From: Gammaproteobacteria bacterium
GTDB lineage: Bacteria; Pseudomonadota; Gammaproteobacteria; SZUA-229
Direction of reading: 5' to 3'
NCBI GenBank assembly: GCA_029882215.1
Contig: JAOULC010000031.1
Location: forward strand, 1 to 37,291
Length of the DNA: 37,291 nt
Below, in pieces: positions 22,829 through 34,705 of the stretch. The translations under genes and the position numbers were made by a program. Within the stretch, counting starts at the first letter, position 1. Each line of letters begins with the position of its first letter. The notes beneath the pieces were generated by a model that saw only the letters and a list, made by a program, of their open reading frames with translations, did not search any database and was not told where the DNA came from.

Positions 22829-23251
22829 TCAGGGTGCTGCTGTAGCACTCTCTGTCATCGCTTTATTAACCACATCGAAAATTTTATTTAACTCATCTTC
22901 AGTGTATTTAATTGCCTCATGCCTGCCCCATACCGGTGCCGGCCATGAACGATCTTCATGATAGCGGGCAATGTGATGGACATGTAACTGCGGCACAACA
23001 TTACCTAATGCTGCAATATTAATTTTATCGGCATAGAAATAATTTTTCAGAATCAGCGAGAGAAAATTAGATTCTTGCATTAACAGCAACTGATCATCAT
23101 CAGAAAGCTCATAGATCTCGCTGATATCGGTGCGCTCTGGTACCAGAATAAACCACGGGTAGCTAGAATCATTCATTAATAAAAGACTGCATAACTCAAA
23201 CTGACCGAGTTCAATACAATCTTGTTGTAGTTGCGGGTGTAATTTAAACAT
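22829..23251 (-). CDS. HIT family protein
   Basis: A 140-residue histidine triad nucleotide-binding protein. The signature is VPQLHVHHIARYHEDRSWP, in which His90, His92 and His93 form the triad region, and the APVWG end is typical of one proteobacterial HIT subgroup. HIT proteins hydrolyse nucleotide phosphoramidates or dinucleotides, and the substrate of this subgroup is unknown. The ATG at 23249-23251 overlaps by one base the TAA of the EAL-HDOD gene (TAATG), so translation is coupled. An upstream extension of 12 codons lies inside that gene and is rejected. Confidence 0.9.
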   Translation of the reverse strand: MFKLHPQLQQDCIELGQFELCSLLLMNDSSYPWFILVPERTDISEIYELSDDDQLLLMQESNFLSLILKNYFYADKINIAALGNVVPQLHVHHIARYHEDRSWPAPVWGRHEAIKYTEDELNKIFDVVNKAMTESATAAP

Positions 23252-24462
23252 TAATTTTTTAATTCTCTTATTGTTGTGTCTGCCCACTTTACCGCAGTAA
23301 GATAGGATTCATTCAGTCGTTTTGTTTTTATACAACTATCATCGAGTTTATCAAACTCGGCTCGCTCATATAAAATACAGTTTTTAAGTAATTCGCCAAG
23401 CTCACCTTCATAATCCAGTAAAGCCAGTTTGATCGGTGTGGATAAAATAACTGTGTCGAGTAAGTCGATCATGGGTTTATCCATTAAAGCATCCAGCACC
23501 GAAAATAAACCGCAGATAAAGGCCTGTTTCTCAAGTTCAGGCGTCGTGTTACGGGCGATTAATTCGACCATCTTTGCGCGTTGCAAGGCTGTGGTAATTA
23601 ACTGGTCCGGTTTATCATCATTGAGCTTGCTGATTAATATAAGACTGGCCCAGTTTTTTATACTGTCCAGCCCAAGCAGTACAATAGCATCTTTGATTGA
23701 CTCTATTTCTCTGCGCAGGGAAAAGGCAGCACTGTTTATATAGCGCAGTAATTTGTAGGTGAGTGTCACGTCCCGGGACAGGACATCTTCAAGCCCTTGT
23801 ATTTCTGTCTCCGGTTTAAGTATCTCTGTGATCAGACTCATCACAACCATTTTATTGGCGCAAACCTTCTTTTGCACAACCATCTGCGGGTAGCAAAAAA
23901 AGTAACCCTGATAGTAGTCGAAATCCAGTGTCTTACACTGTAAAAACAGCTCATTAGTTTCGACTTTTTCTGCAATCAATTTTACTTTGTGATGCTTCTT
24001 TAATAGACTAATCAGTTCAGCCAGCTCTTTCTGCTGATAATCCAGCACATCAATCTTGACAAAATCGGCCAGCTCCAGCATTGGAATAATTTTCTCAGAA
24101 TAAACAAAGTCATCTAGTGCAATCTTGTAACCCTTTTCCTTCAGTCTTTTAACACCGCTGATAACCTCTTGGCTTGGCTCAACTTCTTCCAGTATTTCCA
24201 GTACTGATTGTTCATGAAACATCGGAATCAGCGCATTATCCAGAATAAACTCTGTCGGTAAATTGACAAAAGCCAGAGAGGTGCCAGCCAGATTATCTAT
24301 ACCGATATGTATGAATGAATTAACAATGGTTTCACTGGAGGCCGTTTTGCCATCTGTAAATTCCGCCATATTAGACTCACTGTCCCGGTATAACAATTCA
24401 TAGCCTATTATCTCAATAGCACTGTCATAGATCGGCTGGCGAGCAATATAGATATTATTCAT
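23251..24462 (-). CDS. EAL and HDOD domain signalling protein (YuxH-type)
   Basis: A 403-residue cytosolic protein. The N-terminal EAL-like domain (about 1-200) starts IYIARQPIYD and retains ExLxR as YELLYR (Glu22 to Arg26), VNLP, LDDF (Asp117, Asp118), VKID, IAEKVET and YYQGYFF. The C-terminal HDOD domain (about 200-400) includes LSRDVTLTYKLLRYINSAAF. YuxH-type proteins bind cyclic di-GMP signalling inputs, and several are catalytically degenerate. Some motif residues are present here, so activity cannot be excluded. It is the first gene of a two-gene unit with the HIT protein. The intergenic region to recQ (24463-24632) is divergent. Confidence 0.93.
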   Translation of the reverse strand: MNNIYIARQPIYDSAIEIIGYELLYRDSESNMAEFTDGKTASSETIVNSFIHIGIDNLAGTSLAFVNLPTEFILDNALIPMFHEQSVLEILEEVEPSQEVISGVKRLKEKGYKIALDDFVYSEKIIPMLELADFVKIDVLDYQQKELAELISLLKKHHKVKLIAEKVETNELFLQCKTLDFDYYQGYFFCYPQMVVQKKVCANKMVVMSLITEILKPETEIQGLEDVLSRDVTLTYKLLRYINSAAFSLRREIESIKDAIVLLGLDSIKNWASLILISKLNDDKPDQLITTALQRAKMVELIARNTTPELEKQAFICGLFSVLDALMDKPMIDLLDTVILSTPIKLALLDYEGELGELLKNCILYERAEFDKLDDSCIKTKRLNESYLTAVKWADTTIRELKN

Positions 24463-27814: not shown

Positions 27815-28399
27815 TTACAATAAATTAACATCTTTAATAAACTGTGAATAAACATCAATCAGCACTTCATTATAGTGAGTGACTAGCTGATATATGTCTC
27901 TGGTCTTATAAGACTTCACACTGCTATAGTCCTTATTCAGCAGCATCACTCCTTTTTTATCGACCATTTGTATACTGACTTTCAGCAGCAATGAAGATGC
28001 ATCAGGCAGGTAGTGTATTTCCATTTTACTAACAGATAACTGTAACCGGTAATTATGATCCGCCGTGTATTTATAGTGAATGATATTGTCACTATCGCCT
28101 GCCAGTTTTAAATAATCAATAAAATGACGGGTCAACAACTTCGGCAATGATTCATGCCATAAATGATAATGAAACGGAATGATTTCATTCGGCTTACCCT
28201 GTTCAACATACAATAAATTTCTGTTTTGCAACAGGCCGGAAACTTTAACTTGCGCTACCGCAATGCCGGCATCAAGACCGGCTTTAACGATGACATCATC
28301 TTCTTTAATATCAGTCAGCCGGTAGTAATGACTGTCGGGTGTGCTAACTGACCCGCAGCCAGTCAGTAACAGCATAAAGATTAAATAAAATAGCTTCAT
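27815..28399 (-). CDS. PqiC-like ABC transport auxiliary lipoprotein
   Basis: A 194-residue outer- or inner-membrane lipoprotein. The leader MKLFYLIFMLLLTGCGS has the lipobox LTGC (Cys15). The rest resembles ABC-type transport auxiliary lipoproteins (PqiC family): SVSTPDSHYYRLTDI at the N-terminus, IAVAQVKVSGLLQNRNLLY, then HLWHESLPKLLTRHFIDYL. PqiC-type lipoproteins contact MCE proteins to complete an envelope-spanning path. The ATG at 28397-28399 is 4 nt after the MCE gene stop. A longer ORF would overlap the MCE gene. It is the last gene of the operon and is convergent with dsrE. Confidence 0.88.
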   Translation of the reverse strand: MKLFYLIFMLLLTGCGSVSTPDSHYYRLTDIKEDDVIVKAGLDAGIAVAQVKVSGLLQNRNLLYVEQGKPNEIIPFHYHLWHESLPKLLTRHFIDYLKLAGDSDNIIHYKYTADHNYRLQLSVSKMEIHYLPDASSLLLKVSIQMVDKKGVMLLNKDYSSVKSYKTRDIYQLVTHYNEVLIDVYSQFIKDVNLL

Positions 28400-28403
28400 T
28401 GTA

Positions 28404-29303
28404 TTACCTGATTGCAGAATCTGTCGGGGACTGGTTTCTGATAATGACCGCCGGATTGTTTTTAATCTGACGGGTAATATCATTGATATTCTGACTGCTC
28501 AATTCAATCTGATTGAGTATCAGCTCAAGCTTGTCATTCAATAATCTGGTCGTTGTATTGACATTCTGTACAGAGTCACTGACCTGACTTTTGTTTTTAT
28601 CAACCAGTATATATATCGACTGTGAAATTAACTGAAGATTTTTGGCCATTGAATCCGCATTTTTTATAAAACTCGAAACCTTGGACTGATTACTGTCATT
28701 GAGTACTTTATCAATCACATCAGAATTTTTCTGTAACTTAGTCACCAGTAAATTCAGGTTTTTAGTCAGTTCAGGCAGATCATCACGCATGCTTTTACTG
28801 AATACTGAAATATCATCTTTGAGCTGTTCAATCATCGGTGTCAGTAAACCCGTGGAAATATTATTGATGTTTTCAGAAACAGATTTAACAACAGCCATCA
28901 CATCATTCGGTGGTTTGCTTTCGATATAGCCACCGGCAGCTATCACGGCACTGCCGTGACCTTCATCTATATTAAGTTGTGAGTCTGATAACATGCCTGT
29001 CTTGGTAATCATAATAGTACTGTCCTGCATGATAACCCAGCCTGATTTAACCGACAGAGTTAATTCAAAACGGGTGATATTATTCTTAAAAACAGGTCTC
29101 ATCTCAGTTAACTGCCCTACTTTATAACCCTTGTAGGTAATCGCAGTACCGTTGTTAATACCGGAAACATCATCAAGCACGGTATAATATTTGTCAGCAT
29201 CAGATACCCGGCCGGTTAAAAAATACAATACAATCAGTAAAGCAAAACCAATCGATACTACAAATACACCAGTCAGGGTGTAATTAATGTTGTCTCTTTT
29301 CAT
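28404..29303 (-). CDS. MlaD/MCE-family protein with long helical tail
   Basis: A 299-residue inner-membrane-anchored MCE protein. One transmembrane anchor (about 10-30, TGVFVVSIGFALLIVLYFLT) is followed by a single MCE domain (about 38-118, VLDDVSGINNGTAITYKGYKVGQ). A long helical and coiled-coil segment (about 135-290) is rich in Asn, Lys, Leu and Val repeats. E. coli MlaD is about 183 residues, so the tail here is much longer and resembles the helical barrel-forming tails of PqiB/Mce1-type proteins. MCE proteins form hexameric rings that move lipids between membranes. The stop lies 4 nt before the lipoprotein start. No mlaC gene is seen in the operon. Confidence 0.9.
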   Translation of the reverse strand: MKRDNINYTLTGVFVVSIGFALLIVLYFLTGRVSDADKYYTVLDDVSGINNGTAITYKGYKVGQLTEMRPVFKNNITRFELTLSVKSGWVIMQDSTIMITKTGMLSDSQLNIDEGHGSAVIAAGGYIESKPPNDVMAVVKSVSENINNISTGLLTPMIEQLKDDISVFSKSMRDDLPELTKNLNLLVTKLQKNSDVIDKVLNDSNQSKVSSFIKNADSMAKNLQLISQSIYILVDKNKSQVSDSVQNVNTTTRLLNDKLELILNQIELSSQNINDITRQIKNNPAVIIRNQSPTDSAIR

Positions 29304-29306
29304 GGT

Positions 29307-30089
29307 TTATTTGGTGAGTCTTGATAGATATTCATCGGCATTTATATCCTGTTTTCGGGATTGTCTGTTGATTAAATTCTGAATCTTTTCATTATCAGAT
29401 GATTTCAATTCAGCCACAGTTCCGACCATCAGCAGATCACCTCTGTCTACTACGGTGACTCTGTCTGCTATTTTATAAGTACTGTCAAGTTCATGGGTAA
29501 CGACAACAATCGTTATATTAAGAGCATCCCTGAGGTTTAAAATCAGATCATCAAGTTCCGCTGAAACAACCGGATCAAGCCCGGCAGATGGCTCATCAAA
29601 AAATAAAATTTTAGGGTCCATGATAATTGCCCGCGCAACGGCCGCCCGCTTTATCATTCCGCCGGAAAGTTCTGCTGGCATCAAATGCCCATAACCTGAT
29701 AGATTAACGATCTCTAACTTTATTCTAGTCATTATTTTAATAGTTTCATCATCAAGCCTGGTTAATTCCCGCAGCGGAAAAGCAATATTCTCTTCAACGG
29801 TCATAGAACCAAATAATGCTCCACCCTGAAAAGCCACGCCCATTTTTTGTCTCAAGAGATTTAATTCGACAGCAGATATTTTCCAGATATTACTGCCGAG
29901 AATTTCAATGATCCCGGATGTCGGGTGATTTAGTGCAAGCATGTGCCGCAGTAAGGTGCTTTTACCAGAACCACTGCCACCCATGATCACCATTATTTCA
30001 CCACGACGGATCGTTAAATCAATATTATTCAGTATACGTGTCGGGCCATAGTGAGTGGTTAAGTTAGTGATTTTGATAACGTCATTCAT
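29307..30089 (-). CDS. Mla-type ABC transporter ATP-binding protein (MlaF family)
   Basis: A 260-residue ATPase. Motifs: Walker A GGSGSGKST (37-45), Q-loop region GVAFQGGALF, signature LSGGM (140-144), Walker B ILFFDEPSAGLDP (160-172) and H-loop VTHEL (His198). The GALF and LSGGM combination is typical of MlaF. It would power lipid transport together with the MlaE permease. In E. coli MlaF also binds the STAS protein MlaB, and in this operon the STAS gene is two positions upstream. It starts 5 nt after the permease gene and ends 3 nt before the MCE gene start, and a full operon is implied. Confidence 0.93.
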   Translation of the reverse strand: MNDVIKITNLTTHYGPTRILNNIDLTIRRGEIMVIMGGSGSGKSTLLRHMLALNHPTSGIIEILGSNIWKISAVELNLLRQKMGVAFQGGALFGSMTVEENIAFPLRELTRLDDETIKIMTRIKLEIVNLSGYGHLMPAELSGGMIKRAAVARAIIMDPKILFFDEPSAGLDPVVSAELDDLILNLRDALNITIVVVTHELDSTYKIADRVTVVDRGDLLMVGTVAELKSSDNEKIQNLINRQSRKQDINADEYLSRLTK

Positions 30090-30094
30090 AAAAA

Positions 30095-30889
30095 TTAACG
30101 GTTGATAAAGTAAGTGAAGATCATATCTGCCATTACAATACTGCTTATAGCAAATACCACCGAGCGGGTTGTTGCCACACCAACACCCTCGGCCCCGCCA
30201 CGAACCTGAAAACCATTACTGGCACCGATTATAGTGATGAGCAGTGAAAATATGACACTTTTAGCAAGCCCCTGAAAAAGATCTGCGCTATGTAACACAT
30301 CAAATGTTCGGGCAATATAATTATCAAAGGTCATATCAAGTGTCAGTGTTGAATATAAAGCACCGCCTAGTAAGCCGGCTATATCTCCCAGAAAGGTCAG
30401 AGAAGGTAACATAACTAACATGGCCAGCAACAAAGGTGACACCAGATAACGAACCGGATTAATACCAATAACAATCAGCGCATCAACTTCCTGTGAACCC
30501 ATCATACTGCCAATCTTTGCGGTAATGGCTGAGCCGGAACGCCCCGCAATCAGGATGCCGACAATTAACGGTGAAAACTCCCTGGTCATGGAAAATGTAA
30601 TGCCGTATATCACCTGCGACTCTGCACCAAACACTTTCAGTGTTTCTATGCCCTGTATTGCCAGCATTACTCCCACGGAAAAACACAATATAATAACAAT
30701 CGGGATTGCCTGTATACCCACCTTAACTGCTTCAAAAGCAATCAGATGCAGGCGAACAGGCTGCCTGAAAAACGCACCGGCCAATATCCAGTAAATACTT
30801 TCATAACACAGCATAAAGATATAACCGGCCTCGGTTACAGTGGCAAAAGCTTTATGACCAATTAGTGTTATGAGTTTAGACGCTGACAT
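30095..30889 (-). CDS. Mla-type ABC transporter permease (MlaE family)
   Basis: A 264-residue inner-membrane permease with five or six predicted helices. It has the MlaE pattern: RQPVRLHLIAFEAVKVGIQAIPIV in the N-terminal part, REFSPLIVGILIAGRSGSAITAKIGSM in the middle (the conserved coupling region), and VIGINPVRYLVSPLLLAM. GASNGFQVRGGAEGVG lies near the C-terminus. It forms the dimeric core of the transporter with MlaF and docks the MCE ring. It lies 7 nt downstream of the STAS gene, which is close enough for translational coupling. Confidence 0.94.
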   Translation of the reverse strand: MSASKLITLIGHKAFATVTEAGYIFMLCYESIYWILAGAFFRQPVRLHLIAFEAVKVGIQAIPIVIILCFSVGVMLAIQGIETLKVFGAESQVIYGITFSMTREFSPLIVGILIAGRSGSAITAKIGSMMGSQEVDALIVIGINPVRYLVSPLLLAMLVMLPSLTFLGDIAGLLGGALYSTLTLDMTFDNYIARTFDVLHSADLFQGLAKSVIFSLLITIIGASNGFQVRGGAEGVGVATTRSVVFAISSIVMADMIFTYFINR

Positions 30890-30896
30890 ATCATTA

Positions 30897-31196
30897 TCAC
30901 TTTATTGGAAAAACCGAATCGAGTCTTGCCAGTTTTATTACCTGCATAACTGGCTGGCTGATATTAGTCATTACAAACCCAAGATTTTTATTTTTTGAAA
31001 TCTGAAAGGCTTCAACAAAACAAGCCACGCCAGAGCTGTCCAGATACTGAACATTACTGAGGTCAACCTCCAGTGAAACGTCCATTTTGTAAATATCCAA
31101 TATGGCCTTTCTCAGGTCAGGTGAATAATGCAAATCAATCTCACCAGACAGTGCCAGAATACTCAAGCCATCAGTATTAGTTATCGTATATTTCAC
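30897..31196 (-). CDS. STAS-domain protein (RsbV/SpoIIAA-like and MlaB-like)
   Basis: A 99-residue single STAS domain. It opens TITNTDGLSILALSGEIDLHYS and has VDLSNVQYLDSSGVACF around residues 44-60. The motif D53-S54-S55-G56 matches SpoIIAA DSSG, where the serine right after the aspartate is phosphorylated, so Ser54 is the predicted phosphosite. STAS proteins act either as anti-sigma antagonists or, as MlaB, as subunits of the Mla ATPase. This gene is placed 7 nt after the RsbW-like kinase and 7 nt before the MlaE permease, the point where the switch meets the transporter. Both roles fit, and I favour a phospho-controlled MlaB. Confidence 0.93.
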   Translation of the reverse strand: MKYTITNTDGLSILALSGEIDLHYSPDLRKAILDIYKMDVSLEVDLSNVQYLDSSGVACFVEAFQISKNKNLGFVMTNISQPVMQVIKLARLDSVFPIK

Positions 31197-31203
31197 CGCT
31201 ACC

Positions 31204-31623
31204 TCACAGATACTTCATTAAAGTTAGAATATTCCCACGAGTACCGTCCTTATGTGAAAAAATCATACTGTCCATTATTTCCTCTATGATATGTAAGCCA
31301 CGACCACCAGGCTTGAGTAAATCATTATTAACTGGCATGAGTTGCGGGCTATCGGAAAACTTTGCATCATCAGAAATAATGATCGAAAGGACATTCTCAT
31401 CAACCTTACATGAGACATTAATAAAACCACAGTACTGGCCTTTGTTGGCATGCTGAACAATGTTCATACATGCCTCATTCACCGCAATAATTATTTTATC
31501 CACATCGATATCTGTGCTGTTACGTGACAATAAAAATAACCGTAAATTATCACGAATAATTTTTAACGAGGCTGTATCTGATTTGTATTGCCAGCATGAG
31601 GCTGTTAATGAATCAGTGTCCAT
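31204..31623 (-). CDS. RsbW-like serine kinase / anti-sigma-type ATPase
   Basis: A 139-residue GHKL ATPase of the HATPase_c_2 type, as in RsbW, SpoIIAB and RsbT. The N-box is AVNEACMNIVQHANKG (Glu50, Asn54, His58). The usual DnGxPF-type box reads SDDAKFSD, with alanine in place of the glycine, and GGRGLHIIEEI (106-116) is the lid/G2 segment. These kinases phosphorylate STAS partners on serine. The STAS protein is the next gene. The ATG at 31621-31623 overlaps the end of the phosphatase gene by 11 bp, and an upstream ORF extension is rejected. Kinase activity despite the Gly-to-Ala change is plausible but unproven. Confidence 0.9.
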   Translation of the reverse strand: MDTDSLTASCWQYKSDTASLKIIRDNLRLFLLSRNSTDIDVDKIIIAVNEACMNIVQHANKGQYCGFINVSCKVDENVLSIIISDDAKFSDSPQLMPVNNDLLKPGGRGLHIIEEIMDSMIFSHKDGTRGNILTLMKYL

Positions 31624-33265
31624 TGACAACAAGTACCGTAACGTCATCGCTAATGACGGCTCTAGCAGTGGAGAATTCGTTTCTAATATGATCTATCTGA
31701 TCGCTCACAGGCAGTGAATAAATCTCTTTGAAGTACCTCAGTACACCGTCAATTTCAACTTTTTTTCCGTCTATTTCGGCTTCATTTAGTCCGTCACTAA
31801 AAACATACAACATCGAGTTTTTTAATAAAAAGCTTTCTGATGTGAACTCAGTATCGCGGATTATCCCGAGTGGAAACGTTGAAGAATTAATCTTTATACT
31901 GCCGCTGTCGCTGATAATGAACGCTGGCGGATGACCGGCATTAATAATCGTCAGCTTACCTGTTTTGGGAAAGTATTTACCGCAGACAAAAGTAACAAAC
32001 ATACCTCTTATTGAGGTTTCAACAAGCTCATTATTAATCACACTGACAAGCTTTTGAAGGTCGAAGATAAATTTACCAAGACAGTGAAAAAGGCTGCTGG
32101 TCTTAACCATCAAAAGAGAGGCATTTACGCCTTTTCCGGACACATCAGCCAGACAAAATATAATACTGCCGTCAGCAACTTTCTGGTAATCATAAAAGTC
32201 ACCGGATAACTGTTTAGCCGGAATATTAAAACCATGTACCGGCAAATCAGTTGCATCAGGTAACAAACTTTCCTGTACTTCAGTAGCAAGCGCCAGTTCA
32301 TTGTCCAGCTCCAGTGACAACCGGTCTCTTTCTTTTATCGTTTCCTGCAGCCTCCAGTTCAGCTCCTGTATCTCAAGGTTGTCCTGCGCCAGTTTGATAT
32401 TACTTTTTTTCAAAAGATCATTATATTCCGGCATATCGTCGATCAAAATACCAAGTGCATTAGCGGCTTTTTGAATTGAAGGTGATATTTTAGTCAGACA
32501 AGTATCGACTTCTTCGCCACTAAAGTTGATATTATTCTGTAACTGTAATTTACATAAATCCAGAGATATTTTGAGCTGATCAGATGCCATCACATAGGCC
32601 AGCCAGTCTGCCGCATTTAATATTGCATAAGTATCAACAATAGCGGATTTTTCACACTGATGATGATTTTTAACAGCTGAAATTATTGACTCAGGCAGTG
32701 ACCACTGCTCACCTATGATATTAAATACTTCTGTATGTGAATAACCAAAGACTGTTTTTTCAAAATCAGATCTGAGTGACGGACTAGTTTGTCTTAACTG
32801 CTGCCAGTTGCTAAGCTTATCCGGCTCCAGATAAAATAAAACAAGAAGTCCTAAATCCTGTAACAGGCCGGCGGTAAAACATTCATCAGGATCTTTTTTG
32901 TAGAGATTGCCAATGTATTTGGCGGCAACGGCTCTGAACACACTATCTGCCCAGAATTCATTTAGAAAATCGCTATCAAAGGTACTGCCAGAAAAAACTT
33001 CTTTAACCGATAAACACAGGCACAGATTGCGTAAACTTTTGACACCAATAACAGAGATAGCCTGACTGATAGAACTTATTTCATGTGTGATTGCATAAAA
33101 AGCAGAATTTACCATCCTCAATACTTCTGCTGTTAACTGAGGATCATTGGTTACAAATTTAGTAATCTCTGCATAGTCTGCAGAATCATCTGAGCAGGCT
33201 CTGAGGACACTCAACGACGCTTGTGGCGGTGACGGCAGTTCCGATGGTTCTATTGATCTGATCAT
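31613..33265 (-). CDS. HDOD domain fused to SpoIIE-type PP2C phosphatase
   Basis: A 550-residue protein. The N-terminal HDOD domain (about 5-200: ELPSPPQASLSVLRACSDD, FVTNDPQLTAEVLRMVNSAFY; the HD site reads LLQDLG, with histidine replaced) is followed by a linker coiled coil (about 270-340, LELDNELALATEVQESLLPD). The SpoIIE domain comes last: LSGDFYD (Asp356), LADVSGKGVNAS, SDGLNEA and SDDVTVLVV, all with metal-binding aspartates. SpoIIE/RsbU phosphatases remove phosphate from STAS proteins. The HDOD domain is the input that could regulate it. It overlaps the kinase gene and lies 40 nt after the response regulator gene. Confidence 0.93.
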   Translation of the reverse strand: MIRSIEPSELPSPPQASLSVLRACSDDSADYAEITKFVTNDPQLTAEVLRMVNSAFYAITHEISSISQAISVIGVKSLRNLCLCLSVKEVFSGSTFDSDFLNEFWADSVFRAVAAKYIGNLYKKDPDECFTAGLLQDLGLLVLFYLEPDKLSNWQQLRQTSPSLRSDFEKTVFGYSHTEVFNIIGEQWSLPESIISAVKNHHQCEKSAIVDTYAILNAADWLAYVMASDQLKISLDLCKLQLQNNINFSGEEVDTCLTKISPSIQKAANALGILIDDMPEYNDLLKKSNIKLAQDNLEIQELNWRLQETIKERDRLSLELDNELALATEVQESLLPDATDLPVHGFNIPAKQLSGDFYDYQKVADGSIIFCLADVSGKGVNASLLMVKTSSLFHCLGKFIFDLQKLVSVINNELVETSIRGMFVTFVCGKYFPKTGKLTIINAGHPPAFIISDSGSIKINSSTFPLGIIRDTEFTSESFLLKNSMLYVFSDGLNEAEIDGKKVEIDGVLRYFKEIYSLPVSDQIDHIRNEFSTARAVISDDVTVLVVNGH

Positions 33266-33305
33266 ATAGAAAGCGCTCGTAGCTGTAATAATGCTAACGT
33301 TCAGG

Positions 33306-34196
33306 CTAAATATTTATGGTCGCTTTCACCTGATTACCACAACCAAAATACTCGATATTTGAAAAGCTTAATAATTTTGCCATCGCAATACCGCGGCCAT
33401 GTGAGTCAAGAATGTCACTTAAATCTTTTTCCATGAAGTTTTTGTAATCAAAGCCCATTCCCATATCAGTAATTAAAAAGCTTATATTGGAATCTGATCG
33501 CTGATACTCTATAGTGACTCTTTTATCCTTATATGCATCTAAAGATAATCTTTTATTAATTTCCTCATACAACACATCATCTCTGAGTAAAATCGTTTTT
33601 TCGTCATAAGTAATACCAAGATTACCGTGTTCAACGGCATTAATGATCAGCTCAGACAAGCCGGTTACTGTCTTATTGGGTTCCGGGCAACAAATGGCGA
33701 GTAATTTGGAAAGGTTTCTGGCTTCTTCCAGCGTCGTACACTCAAACATACCGGACTGCAGTAAAGAAAATGAGTTGGTTGTGTCATTTAATTCTGATAT
33801 CAGTAACTCATGAGCGCGGAACTGATCGACAGCGGCTTTAAGTACAGTTAAAAGGGTTTTTCTGTCAAACGGCTTGGTTAGATAATAATACGAGCCACAT
33901 TCCAGTCCTTCCTGAATTTCAGACTTCATGGCTTTAGCGGTTTGCATAATGACAGGAATGTCATGTAATGCAGTGTTCGACTTCATTTCTTTGAGAACGC
34001 TCAGGCCATCCATATCAGGCATCATACGGTCCAGCAATACTGCAGAGAAACGATCCGGCTCCTTGTATAAATTTTCAAGTGCCTGTGTACCACATTCCGC
34101 GTGAACCGGATCATAACCGGCATCCACTATATATTCATTCAGCAGTAACCGGTTGATCGCTTCATCATCGACTATCAATACAGATGTCTTGGGCAT
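33306..34196 (-). CDS. Response regulator fused to RsbW-like ATPase
   Basis: A 296-residue protein. The N-terminal receiver (1-125) has Asp10, Asp11, phosphoacceptor Asp56 (VLLDRMMPDMDG) and the conserved lysine in LTKPFD. The C-terminal GHKL/RsbW-like ATPase (about 150-296) has the N-box LSELIINAVEHGNLG, DMGMGFDY with the DxGxG glycines intact, and GRGIAMAKLL. It is the first gene of the eight-gene operon, 40 nt before the phosphatase gene, with a candidate promoter and dyad directly upstream. The receiver would let an unknown histidine kinase control the second ATPase. No cognate kinase is adjacent. The hybrid kinase at 10407-13076 is about 20 kb away and its link is unproven. Confidence 0.93.
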   Translation of the reverse strand: MPKTSVLIVDDEAINRLLLNEYIVDAGYDPVHAECGTQALENLYKEPDRFSAVLLDRMMPDMDGLSVLKEMKSNTALHDIPVIMQTAKAMKSEIQEGLECGSYYYLTKPFDRKTLLTVLKAAVDQFRAHELLISELNDTTNSFSLLQSGMFECTTLEEARNLSKLLAICCPEPNKTVTGLSELIINAVEHGNLGITYDEKTILLRDDVLYEEINKRLSLDAYKDKRVTIEYQRSDSNISFLITDMGMGFDYKNFMEKDLSDILDSHGRGIAMAKLLSFSNIEYFGCGNQVKATINI

Positions 34197-34348: not shown

Positions 34349-34705
34349 TTAACTATTGTTCAAAATATGAGCAGTGGCTTCGTGTTTATCATAATCATCA
34401 CCGATAAACTTAAACTCGTTCCAGCCAATTTTAACCATGTCATTATTCGTCAGTTCTTTACGCGCTACAACGCGGCTACCATTCACAAACGAGCCATTGG
34501 TACTGCCTAAATCATGTAAATAGTAGCGATAATGCCCTTCATAATAAGGGTCTTCTTCCCGCTCAAACTGTGCGTGTAAGCCGCTAACCGCGATATCATC
34601 AATCACCAGGTCATTGTCCTGATTTCTTCCAACCGTCAAAATATCAATATCCAGCTCCAGCTTAGAGCTCACCACACGATCAACCAGTTGTAATAATAAG
34701 GCCAT
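34349..34705 (-). CDS. FHA domain protein
   Basis: A 118-residue single forkhead-associated domain. Phosphothreonine-binding positions are present: VGR (Gly26, Arg27), SGLH (Ser41, His44) and GSTNGSFVNG (Asn70). FHA proteins read Ser/Thr phosphorylation. It is the gene directly upstream of the partner-switch operon on the same strand (152-nt gap with a dyad), so a role in the same signalling is possible but not shown. No Ser/Thr kinase of the Hanks type is in the window. The start ATG at 34703-34705 has a weak ribosome binding site (GAG). Confidence 0.93.
   Translation of the reverse strand: MALLLQLVDRVVSSKLELDIDILTVGRNQDNDLVIDDIAVSGLHAQFEREEDPYYEGHYRYYLHDLGSTNGSFVNGSRVVARKELTNNDMVKIGWNEFKFIGDDYDKHEATAHILNNS

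Follow-up and report, generated by a model that had tools for sequence, protein, structure and literature searches.

An RsbW-type partner switch encoded beside an Mla-type lipid transporter, with the ATPase MlaF as its probable target

The output of the partner switches RsbU-RsbW-RsbV and SpoIIE-SpoIIAB-SpoIIAA is a sigma factor. These switches combine a SpoIIE-type phosphatase and an RsbW-type kinase with a STAS protein that contains a conserved serine. The same three components are encoded in the stretch of DNA analysed here, the 37,291-nucleotide contig JAOULC010000031.1 (contig C90, hereafter the window) of a Gammaproteobacteria bacterium (assembly GCA_029882215.1), where they stand directly in front of the genes of an Mla-type lipid transporter. 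Unlike in RsbU-RsbW-RsbV, the linked and probable target in the window is the transporter ATPase MlaF. A first-pass annotation of this DNA had seen no sigma factor gene, and indeed no sigma-factor domain was found with Pfam or NCBIfam in the 23 other window open reading frames (ORFs) scanned, with recQ, Nudix, pgsA and smaller ORFs unscanned; the scan covered window ORFs, with other loci outside it, so that a distant sigma factor is still possible. Probably the operon constitutes a partner switch with a lipid ABC transporter as its output, in which phosphorylation of Ser54 of the STAS protein would remove this protein from MlaF. A target other than a sigma factor is also found in SiaABCD of Pseudomonas aeruginosa, in which a PP2C phosphatase and a kinase balance the phosphorylation of a small protein, but there the target is a diguanylate cyclase and not an ABC transporter ATPase (PMC7647112).

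In Escherichia coli the STAS protein MlaB is needed for MlaF to remain with the permease MlaE, the variant T52E shows weaker MlaF binding, and the variant T52A is still bound to MlaF with its ATPase activity abolished (PMC7367683, PMC5016091). The E. coli MlaFEDB complex resembles the window operon in having a STAS subunit beside MlaF, a Ser/Thr residue at the interface and a C-terminal extension of MlaF; in contrast, no kinase or phosphatase is known for MlaB, whereas the window operon has both and its STAS protein is RsbV-like (PMC7367683, PMC5016091). Phosphorylation of MlaB has been raised as a hypothesis, without a kinase, in 2016 (PMC5016091) and 2020 (PMC7367683). The Mla-Pqi chimera Mpc of Brucella abortus shares with the window an MlaE permease, an MlaF ATPase, a long MCE protein and a PqiC-like lipoprotein, but in it the STAS domain and the permease form one fusion protein, whereas the STAS protein of the window is separate and has its own kinase and phosphatase (PMC12436622). 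The negative regulator of mycobacterial Mce1 is likewise a dedicated control protein for an MCE transporter, but it is a membrane protein and involves no STAS phosphorylation (PMC10517005). Among the matches listed in the open-access literature, with preprints and most subscription papers lying outside it, no kinase or phosphatase for MlaB was reported, and no paper in the open-access literature searched joins MlaF with RsbW, or an MCE protein with SpoIIE and STAS. In view of the missing report of an MlaB kinase in that literature, the novelty lies in the output of this partner switch, an ABC transporter; the idea of MlaB phosphorylation itself is older.

The locus consists of eight genes between positions 27815 and 34196, all on the minus strand, and the domain assignments, strand and spacings given in the first-pass annotation were reproduced by Pfam, NCBIfam and the coordinates:

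33306..34196, minus strand: fusion of a receiver (REC) domain with an RsbW-type HATPase (Pfam Response_reg and HATPase_c_2)
31613..33265, minus strand: HDOD-SpoIIE (PP2C-type) phosphatase (Pfam HDOD and SpoIIE)
31204..31623, alternative start 31647, minus strand: predicted RsbW-type HATPase_c_2 serine kinase (Pfam HATPase_c_2; NCBIfam RsbW below cut-off)
30897..31196, minus strand: STAS protein of 99 residues with a GTG start (Pfam STAS)
30095..30889, minus strand: MlaE-family permease (Pfam MlaE, E 2e-64)
29307..30089, minus strand: MlaF-family ATPase with a C-terminal extension (NCBIfam best match MlaF, below cut-off; MlaF chains from the PDB among the best matches)
28404..29303, minus strand: long MlaD-like protein with a single MCE domain (Pfam MlaD, E 1.9e-10)
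27815..28399, minus strand: PqiC-like lipoprotein (ABC_trans_aux, E 1.2e-8; NCBIfam pqiC 22.4 bits, below cut-off; lipobox LTGC)

The spacings are 40, -11, 7, 7, 5, 3 and 4 nucleotides, given a kinase start at the ATG at 31623 and a lipoprotein start at the ATG at 28399, the latter taken as the ATG ahead of the lipobox. Because of this close packing on a common strand the eight genes likely form one operon. A promoter scan of the window counted 35 promoter-like sites where 24.5 were expected, which does not decide the matter. Genes for MlaC and MlaA are absent from the operon according to Pfam.

The gene order is conserved well beyond the source genome. Within the order, a close relative of the HDOD-SpoIIE phosphatase is present in 12 of 54 genomes, and the fetched loci keep the succession phosphatase, kinase, STAS, MlaE, MlaF, MCE protein and lipoprotein in otherwise different surroundings. 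The exceptions are L021 and L027, which are cut inside MlaE by contig ends, L024, whose MlaF is divided between two ORFs, and L031, an additional, incomplete phosphatase match in genome G032 with none of the other operon genes. The receiver-RsbW gene, on the other hand, precedes the phosphatase gene in just three of the loci examined, namely the window, L018 and L020, which represent the window's genus. The eight-gene unit described earlier is thus real in the window, but its conserved core comprises the other seven genes. The receiver-RsbW protein is probably an input or a co-regulator of the phosphatase.

This picture was extended by searching GTDB species genomes with a phosphatase alignment; the best 80 of 523 relatives were examined, several of them lying on the same contigs as the family loci. 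Kinase, STAS and an Mla permease or ATPase are all present in 62 of these 80 loci (presence in the locus, order not counted). Three more (L066, L068, L098) have the kinase and Mla genes, the available stretch ending in MlaE, and four have kinase and STAS only, of which L037, L053 and L086 lie near contig ends and L085 is a genuine case. One (L033, at a contig end) has the kinase alone, and ten have no partner genes, seven of them with more than 6 kb downstream (L074, L075, L084, L088, L095, L096, L097), which indicates that an HDOD-SpoIIE protein by itself need not be Mla-linked. Of the 59 loci in which 4.5 kb or more follow the phosphatase gene, 47 have kinase, STAS and MlaF together. The carriers, nearly all metagenome-assembled genomes, belong to the Gammaproteobacteria (Thiogranum, Thiohalobacter, Chromatiales), the Rhodospirillales, the Desulfobulbaceae and a Desulfobacula-type group; the gene order itself recurs in Gammaproteobacteria, in Alphaproteobacteria, mainly Rhodospirillales, and in one Desulfobulbaceae record. 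The Desulfobacula-type loci have their kinase and phosphatase genes oriented divergently to an MlaF-MlaE-MCE-STAS group. The sensor modules of the phosphatase vary, with HDOD in the window and GAF in L107 and L100, from which it follows that the switch exchanges its input and keeps its output. Phosphatase-kinase fusions are found in L059, L060, L085, L100-L106, L110 and L111, those of L059 and L100 being confirmed by Pfam. A second SpoIIE-domain protein is encoded directly after STAS-MlaF in L049 (L049:10440-11591), and in L085 a 169-residue protein without a Pfam match (L085:9444-9953) follows the phosphatase-kinase fusion and STAS, at the expected place of MlaE or MlaF.

A second view is obtained from the STAS protein. 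With an alignment of 28 rows, a match was found in 62 of 369 Gammaproteobacteria genomes, 58 of which reach the strong level of at least 110 bits. The surroundings of 60 matches were fetched and the window, L018 and L030 were added, giving 59 strong loci in total. An RsbW-type kinase gene lies just upstream in 57 of these, the two misses being L146, which begins at a contig edge, and L182, whose kinase gene fell outside the distance rule. In 53 of the 59 a SpoIIE-type phosphatase gene lies no more than 6 kb away, and 51 have MlaF. Three of the eight loci without a scored MlaF run off the contig (L150 after MlaE, L176 inside MlaE, L167 inside MlaF); for the remaining five (L146, L158, L177, L181, L183), an MlaF of the same subfamily is present elsewhere in four of the genomes. 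Among four weaker class matches (65-77 bits), L199 is Mla-linked and L198, L200 and L201 are not. At the level of the phylum, 23 loci (L210-L232) have a STAS protein that scores about 90-100 bits; an Mla gene lies within 1.5 kb in none of them, and 19 have an RsbW-like gene, mostly a weak match. Below about 100 bits, STAS proteins are therefore mostly partners in other kinase-STAS pairs. Relatives of about 90-100 bits are present in numerous genomes of a single large family, f207.

Permease types vary across the loci, and kinase, STAS and MlaF persist. In the window-type arrangement MlaE is accompanied by a long MCE protein and a lipoprotein. In L144, L164 and L189 STAS-MlaF is followed by a canonical MlaE-MlaD-MlaC set (MlaC was found in such variant loci as L144 and L164), and in L185, L193, L194 and L196 STAS is followed by this set with MlaF divergent. 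In L142, L143 and L145 one MlaF and STAS stand upstream of both permease sets, the second set being close in L145 and following after a gap in the others, and in L152, L156 and L168 STAS-MlaF occurs without a permease gene. It is thus MlaF, and not MlaE or the MCE protein, that is the constant partner of kinase and STAS, as would be predicted for a phospho-controlled MlaB. A profile built from 22 switch-linked MlaF proteins, applied to the same 369 genomes, places MlaF proteins of this subfamily (at least 380 bits) in 60 genomes; below the threshold only 342, 334 and 289 bits were listed at a limit of 1e-85, and the remaining MlaF proteins, examined in 26 genomes, score at most 272 bits. The STAS protein and the MlaF subfamily are found together in 56 genomes, STAS only in two, MlaF only in four and neither in 307. 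One STAS-only genome, G267, is explained by contig ends, the other being G365. Among the MlaF-only genomes, G064 is cut at a contig end and G123 has a linked STAS protein that scores only 73 bits, leaving G119 and G287 as genuine cases.

Further support comes from mla operons that include the switch-type MlaF or have it at the switch locus; in some genomes the switch STAS is encoded apart from such an operon. Regions were chosen for an mla operon in genomes where the switch has no adjacent permease or ATPase gene, or for a second operon with a switch-type MlaF. No STAS gene was detected in any of ten such regions (G096 C9, G236 C1, G172 C5, G394 C19, G357 C89, G299 C2, G173 C34, G360 C11, G342 C32, G287 C21) with a wide STAS profile, both positive controls of which came from its training set, and with Pfam STAS_2, which does detect mlaB next to the canonical operons of 7 of the 14 genomes searched (G000, G075, G222, G096, G236, G342, G299). 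Genomes G357, G172 and G394 have a single MlaE gene each (assemblies 91, 100 and 85% complete, respectively). Because this only MlaE-type transporter has no adjacent mlaB, the candidate that suggests itself to serve it is the switch STAS; these genomes contain other STAS genes elsewhere. In G357 the only MlaF of the switch type lies at the switch locus, and MlaE-MlaD-MlaA-MlaC are encoded on another contig, without MlaF or MlaB.

The residues expected for a functional switch are strictly conserved. Counts were made over distinct locus sequences selected by profile score (STAS at least 100 bits), which favours conserved sites and counts near-identical sequences separately. Asp21, Asp53, Ser54 and Ser55 of the STAS protein are kept in 104 of 104 sequences and Gly56 in 103; Ser54, the residue singled out in the first-pass annotation, is thus invariant. 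In the kinase Glu58, Asn62, Asp93, Gly114, Gly115 and Gly117 (numbered from the 31647 start), which we take to be the GHKL nucleotide site, are kept in all 99 sequences. The phosphatase retains Asp356, Asp374, Gly377, Asp491, Asp540 and Asp541 in 97 of 97 distinct domains, the five aspartates presumably binding metal. Ser54 is aligned with Ser58 of SpoIIAA and Thr52 of E. coli MlaB, and on these alignments we propose it as the putative phosphosite. Its conservation was rejected as proof of phosphorylation; MlaB proteins without a known kinase keep a Ser/Thr there. On the side of the ATPase, the C-terminal extension is present, and Tyr254, Leu258 and Thr259, invariant in the 22-row alignment, are aligned with Tyr261, Leu265 and Leu266 of E. 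coli MlaF, by which the extension of that protein grips MlaB (PMC7367683).

With a kinase, a phosphatase and a STAS protein with conserved active sites encoded beside MlaF, the simplest model is that phosphorylation of Ser54 stops transport, and since the grouping recurs in many bacteria, phosphorylation probably switches the transporter. For the reactions, the STAS-MlaF contact, the polarity and the input signal, we infer the following course. The RsbW-type kinase would phosphorylate Ser54, and the HDOD-SpoIIE phosphatase would strip the phosphate in response to signals received by its HDOD sensor, in the window's genus perhaps also under the influence of the receiver-RsbW protein. Dephosphorylated STAS would act as the MlaB subunit by docking on the helical face of MlaF, stabilising MlaF on MlaE and permitting ATP hydrolysis, upon which the Mla-Pqi hybrid of MlaE, MlaF, the long MCE protein and the PqiC-like lipoprotein could move lipid. 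Phosphorylated STAS would be unable to dock, and transport would stop without new gene expression. The suggestion that the STAS protein is a phospho-controlled MlaB is therefore supported by the recurring gene order, the invariant Ser54 and the constancy of MlaF as the partner of kinase and STAS.

A number of observations weigh against this reading. The STAS protein is encoded beside MlaF as an MlaB would be, but its sequence is RsbV-like, with 61.3 bits to TIGR00377 (cut-off 53.45) and only 25.9 bits to mlaB_1 (cut-off 90). A Ser/Thr at the position of Ser54 is also present in E. coli MlaB (Thr52) and in the window genome's own MlaB (Ser). Simple on/off docking may be too simple a picture, given that the T52A variant is bound to MlaF and yet inactive. 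No Mla genes are found beside the switch in L085, L146, L158, L177, L181 and L183; G365 has a kinase-STAS pair and no MlaF of the switch-linked subfamily; and the transporter operons of G119 (L247) and G287 (L248) have a switch-type MlaF in genomes without a switch STAS. The co-occurrence of STAS and MlaF (Fisher p 8e-59) is uncorrected for shared ancestry. A missing mlaB is not unique to switch-type MlaF either, as six other regions examined with the wide STAS profile also show no STAS gene, including the ordinary mla operon of G365 (L241). The structure models call for similar reserve. AlphaFold2 modelled a natural STAS-MlaF read-through (L049, 423 residues, 79 rows) with a mean predicted local distance difference test score (pLDDT) of 88.2, a predicted template modelling score (pTM) of 0.81 and a disordered linker at 125-156, and a STAS-MlaE control (L035, 435 residues, 55 rows) with a pLDDT of 84.8, a pTM of 0.62 and disorder at 125-164; this is one model per pair, and pTM is an indirect measure, read without interface coordinates. 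The control also differs in its partner, a membrane protein, in depth (55 against 79 rows) and in linker length (about 51 against 34 codons), and the rows of the STAS-MlaF alignment were picked by trial until both halves aligned, which tunes the alignment and not the score. Read in this way, the models fit a defined arrangement of STAS and MlaF and none of STAS and MlaE. The MlaF half of the former is closest to MlaF chains (7ch8_J, Z 35.5, root-mean-square deviation 2.1, 251 aligned) in a PDB list filled by ABC ATPases.

Other explanations can be given for the same genes. Kinase and STAS might form an ordinary partner switch for a sigma factor or regulator elsewhere, the transporter genes being merely co-transcribed members of a regulon. 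Such an arrangement would agree with the anti-sigma antagonists as the best-scoring family and the nearest solved structures of the STAS protein, with the phylum-level STAS relatives of about 90-100 bits in their short, Mla-free loci, and with the six loci in which the switch has no adjacent Mla gene. It is nevertheless improbable in view of the negative sigma-factor scan of the window ORFs listed above and of MlaF, which stays the fixed partner while the permease type is exchanged; moreover, four of the five unlinked cases in the class keep a subfamily MlaF in an mlaB-less operon, which co-transcription alone does not predict. SpoIIAB/RsbW-type kinases bind their STAS partner tightly besides phosphorylating it, so the kinase could itself be the real effector, by sequestering dephosphorylated STAS from MlaF or by binding MlaF, with phosphorylation merely freeing the kinase. 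The phosphatase-kinase fusions suggest a balance of phosphorylation rather than a competition for binding, and we regard this explanation as quite improbable.

The polarity might also be reversed, such that phosphorylated STAS is active and the phosphatase shuts transport down; alternatively, the Ser54 phosphate might belong to the catalytic cycle. The E. coli T52A variant, which binds MlaF and abolishes its ATPase activity, points in this direction, as the hydroxyl group does more than allow docking (PMC7367683, PMC5016091). However, T52E weakens the association with MlaF, and a phosphate on a residue in the middle of the interface should repel (PMC7367683), so that a reversed polarity appears unlikely.

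One phospho-switched STAS-MlaF pair might even serve as a shared power unit for two lipid routes. This tentative idea, which is somewhat doubtful at present, is based on the loci in which one pair precedes two permease sets (L142, L143, L145), on the two-set genomes, which hold one more MlaE than MlaF (G089 4/3, G337 3/2, G152 3/2), and on G357 with its MlaF only at the switch. If true, phosphorylation would set the share of the ATPase that each envelope lipid pathway receives, and MCE transport would be under a general control by phosphorylation in roughly one in six of the sampled Gammaproteobacteria species (58/369).

The window belongs to a 3.4-Mb assembly of 144 contigs (98% complete, 4.64% contamination). 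A separate mla operon of the canonical kind lies on contig C59 of this assembly (L019) and includes a short STAS gene of its own; an OEP (TolC-like outer-membrane efflux) gene lies between mlaD and mlaC in that operon (L019:7872-9296). A second full copy of the switch operon is found on contig C24 (L018, G000 C24, 1-16412), flanked by pgsA, recQ, Nudix and FHA genes as in the window. The copy was rejected as a paralogue, its pgsA/recQ/Nudix flanks being identical in kind and the phosphatase identity 60%; from these flanks, this identity and the contamination of the assembly, C24 is probably a contig of a sister species. A scan of viral contigs with the STAS protein found no relative, and a plasmid DNA search gave no match. 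The operon had been delimited at eight genes, and these stand, but one further gene adjoins them upstream on the same strand:

34349..34705, minus strand: FHA-domain gene, a possible accessory (Pfam FHA)

Of the 65 switch or transporter loci scanned, 22 contain FHA-domain genes, including the window, L151, L154, L157, L166, L170, L171, L177, L178, L181, L183, L184, L192, L199, L247 and L249, and 15 contain a PP2C phosphatase gene; in L181 a eukaryotic-like protein kinase sequence was recognised by eye. A link of these FHA and PP2C genes to Ser/Thr kinase signalling is possible. An EAL-HDOD protein is encoded on the minus strand at 23251-24462 of the window, about 3.4 kb past the end of the operon.

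As the operon class offers a candidate kinase, phosphatase and substrate together in many species, it makes phosphorylation of an MlaB directly testable in vitro, and the operons of G119 (L247) and G287 (L248) provide natural tests of the function of a switch-type MlaF without the switch. If the proposed control of MlaF by Ser54 phosphorylation is correct, partner switching would reach beyond transcription and second messengers and act directly on the ATPase of an ABC transporter, and these bacteria would possess a signal-driven on/off control of the lipid balance of their envelope.

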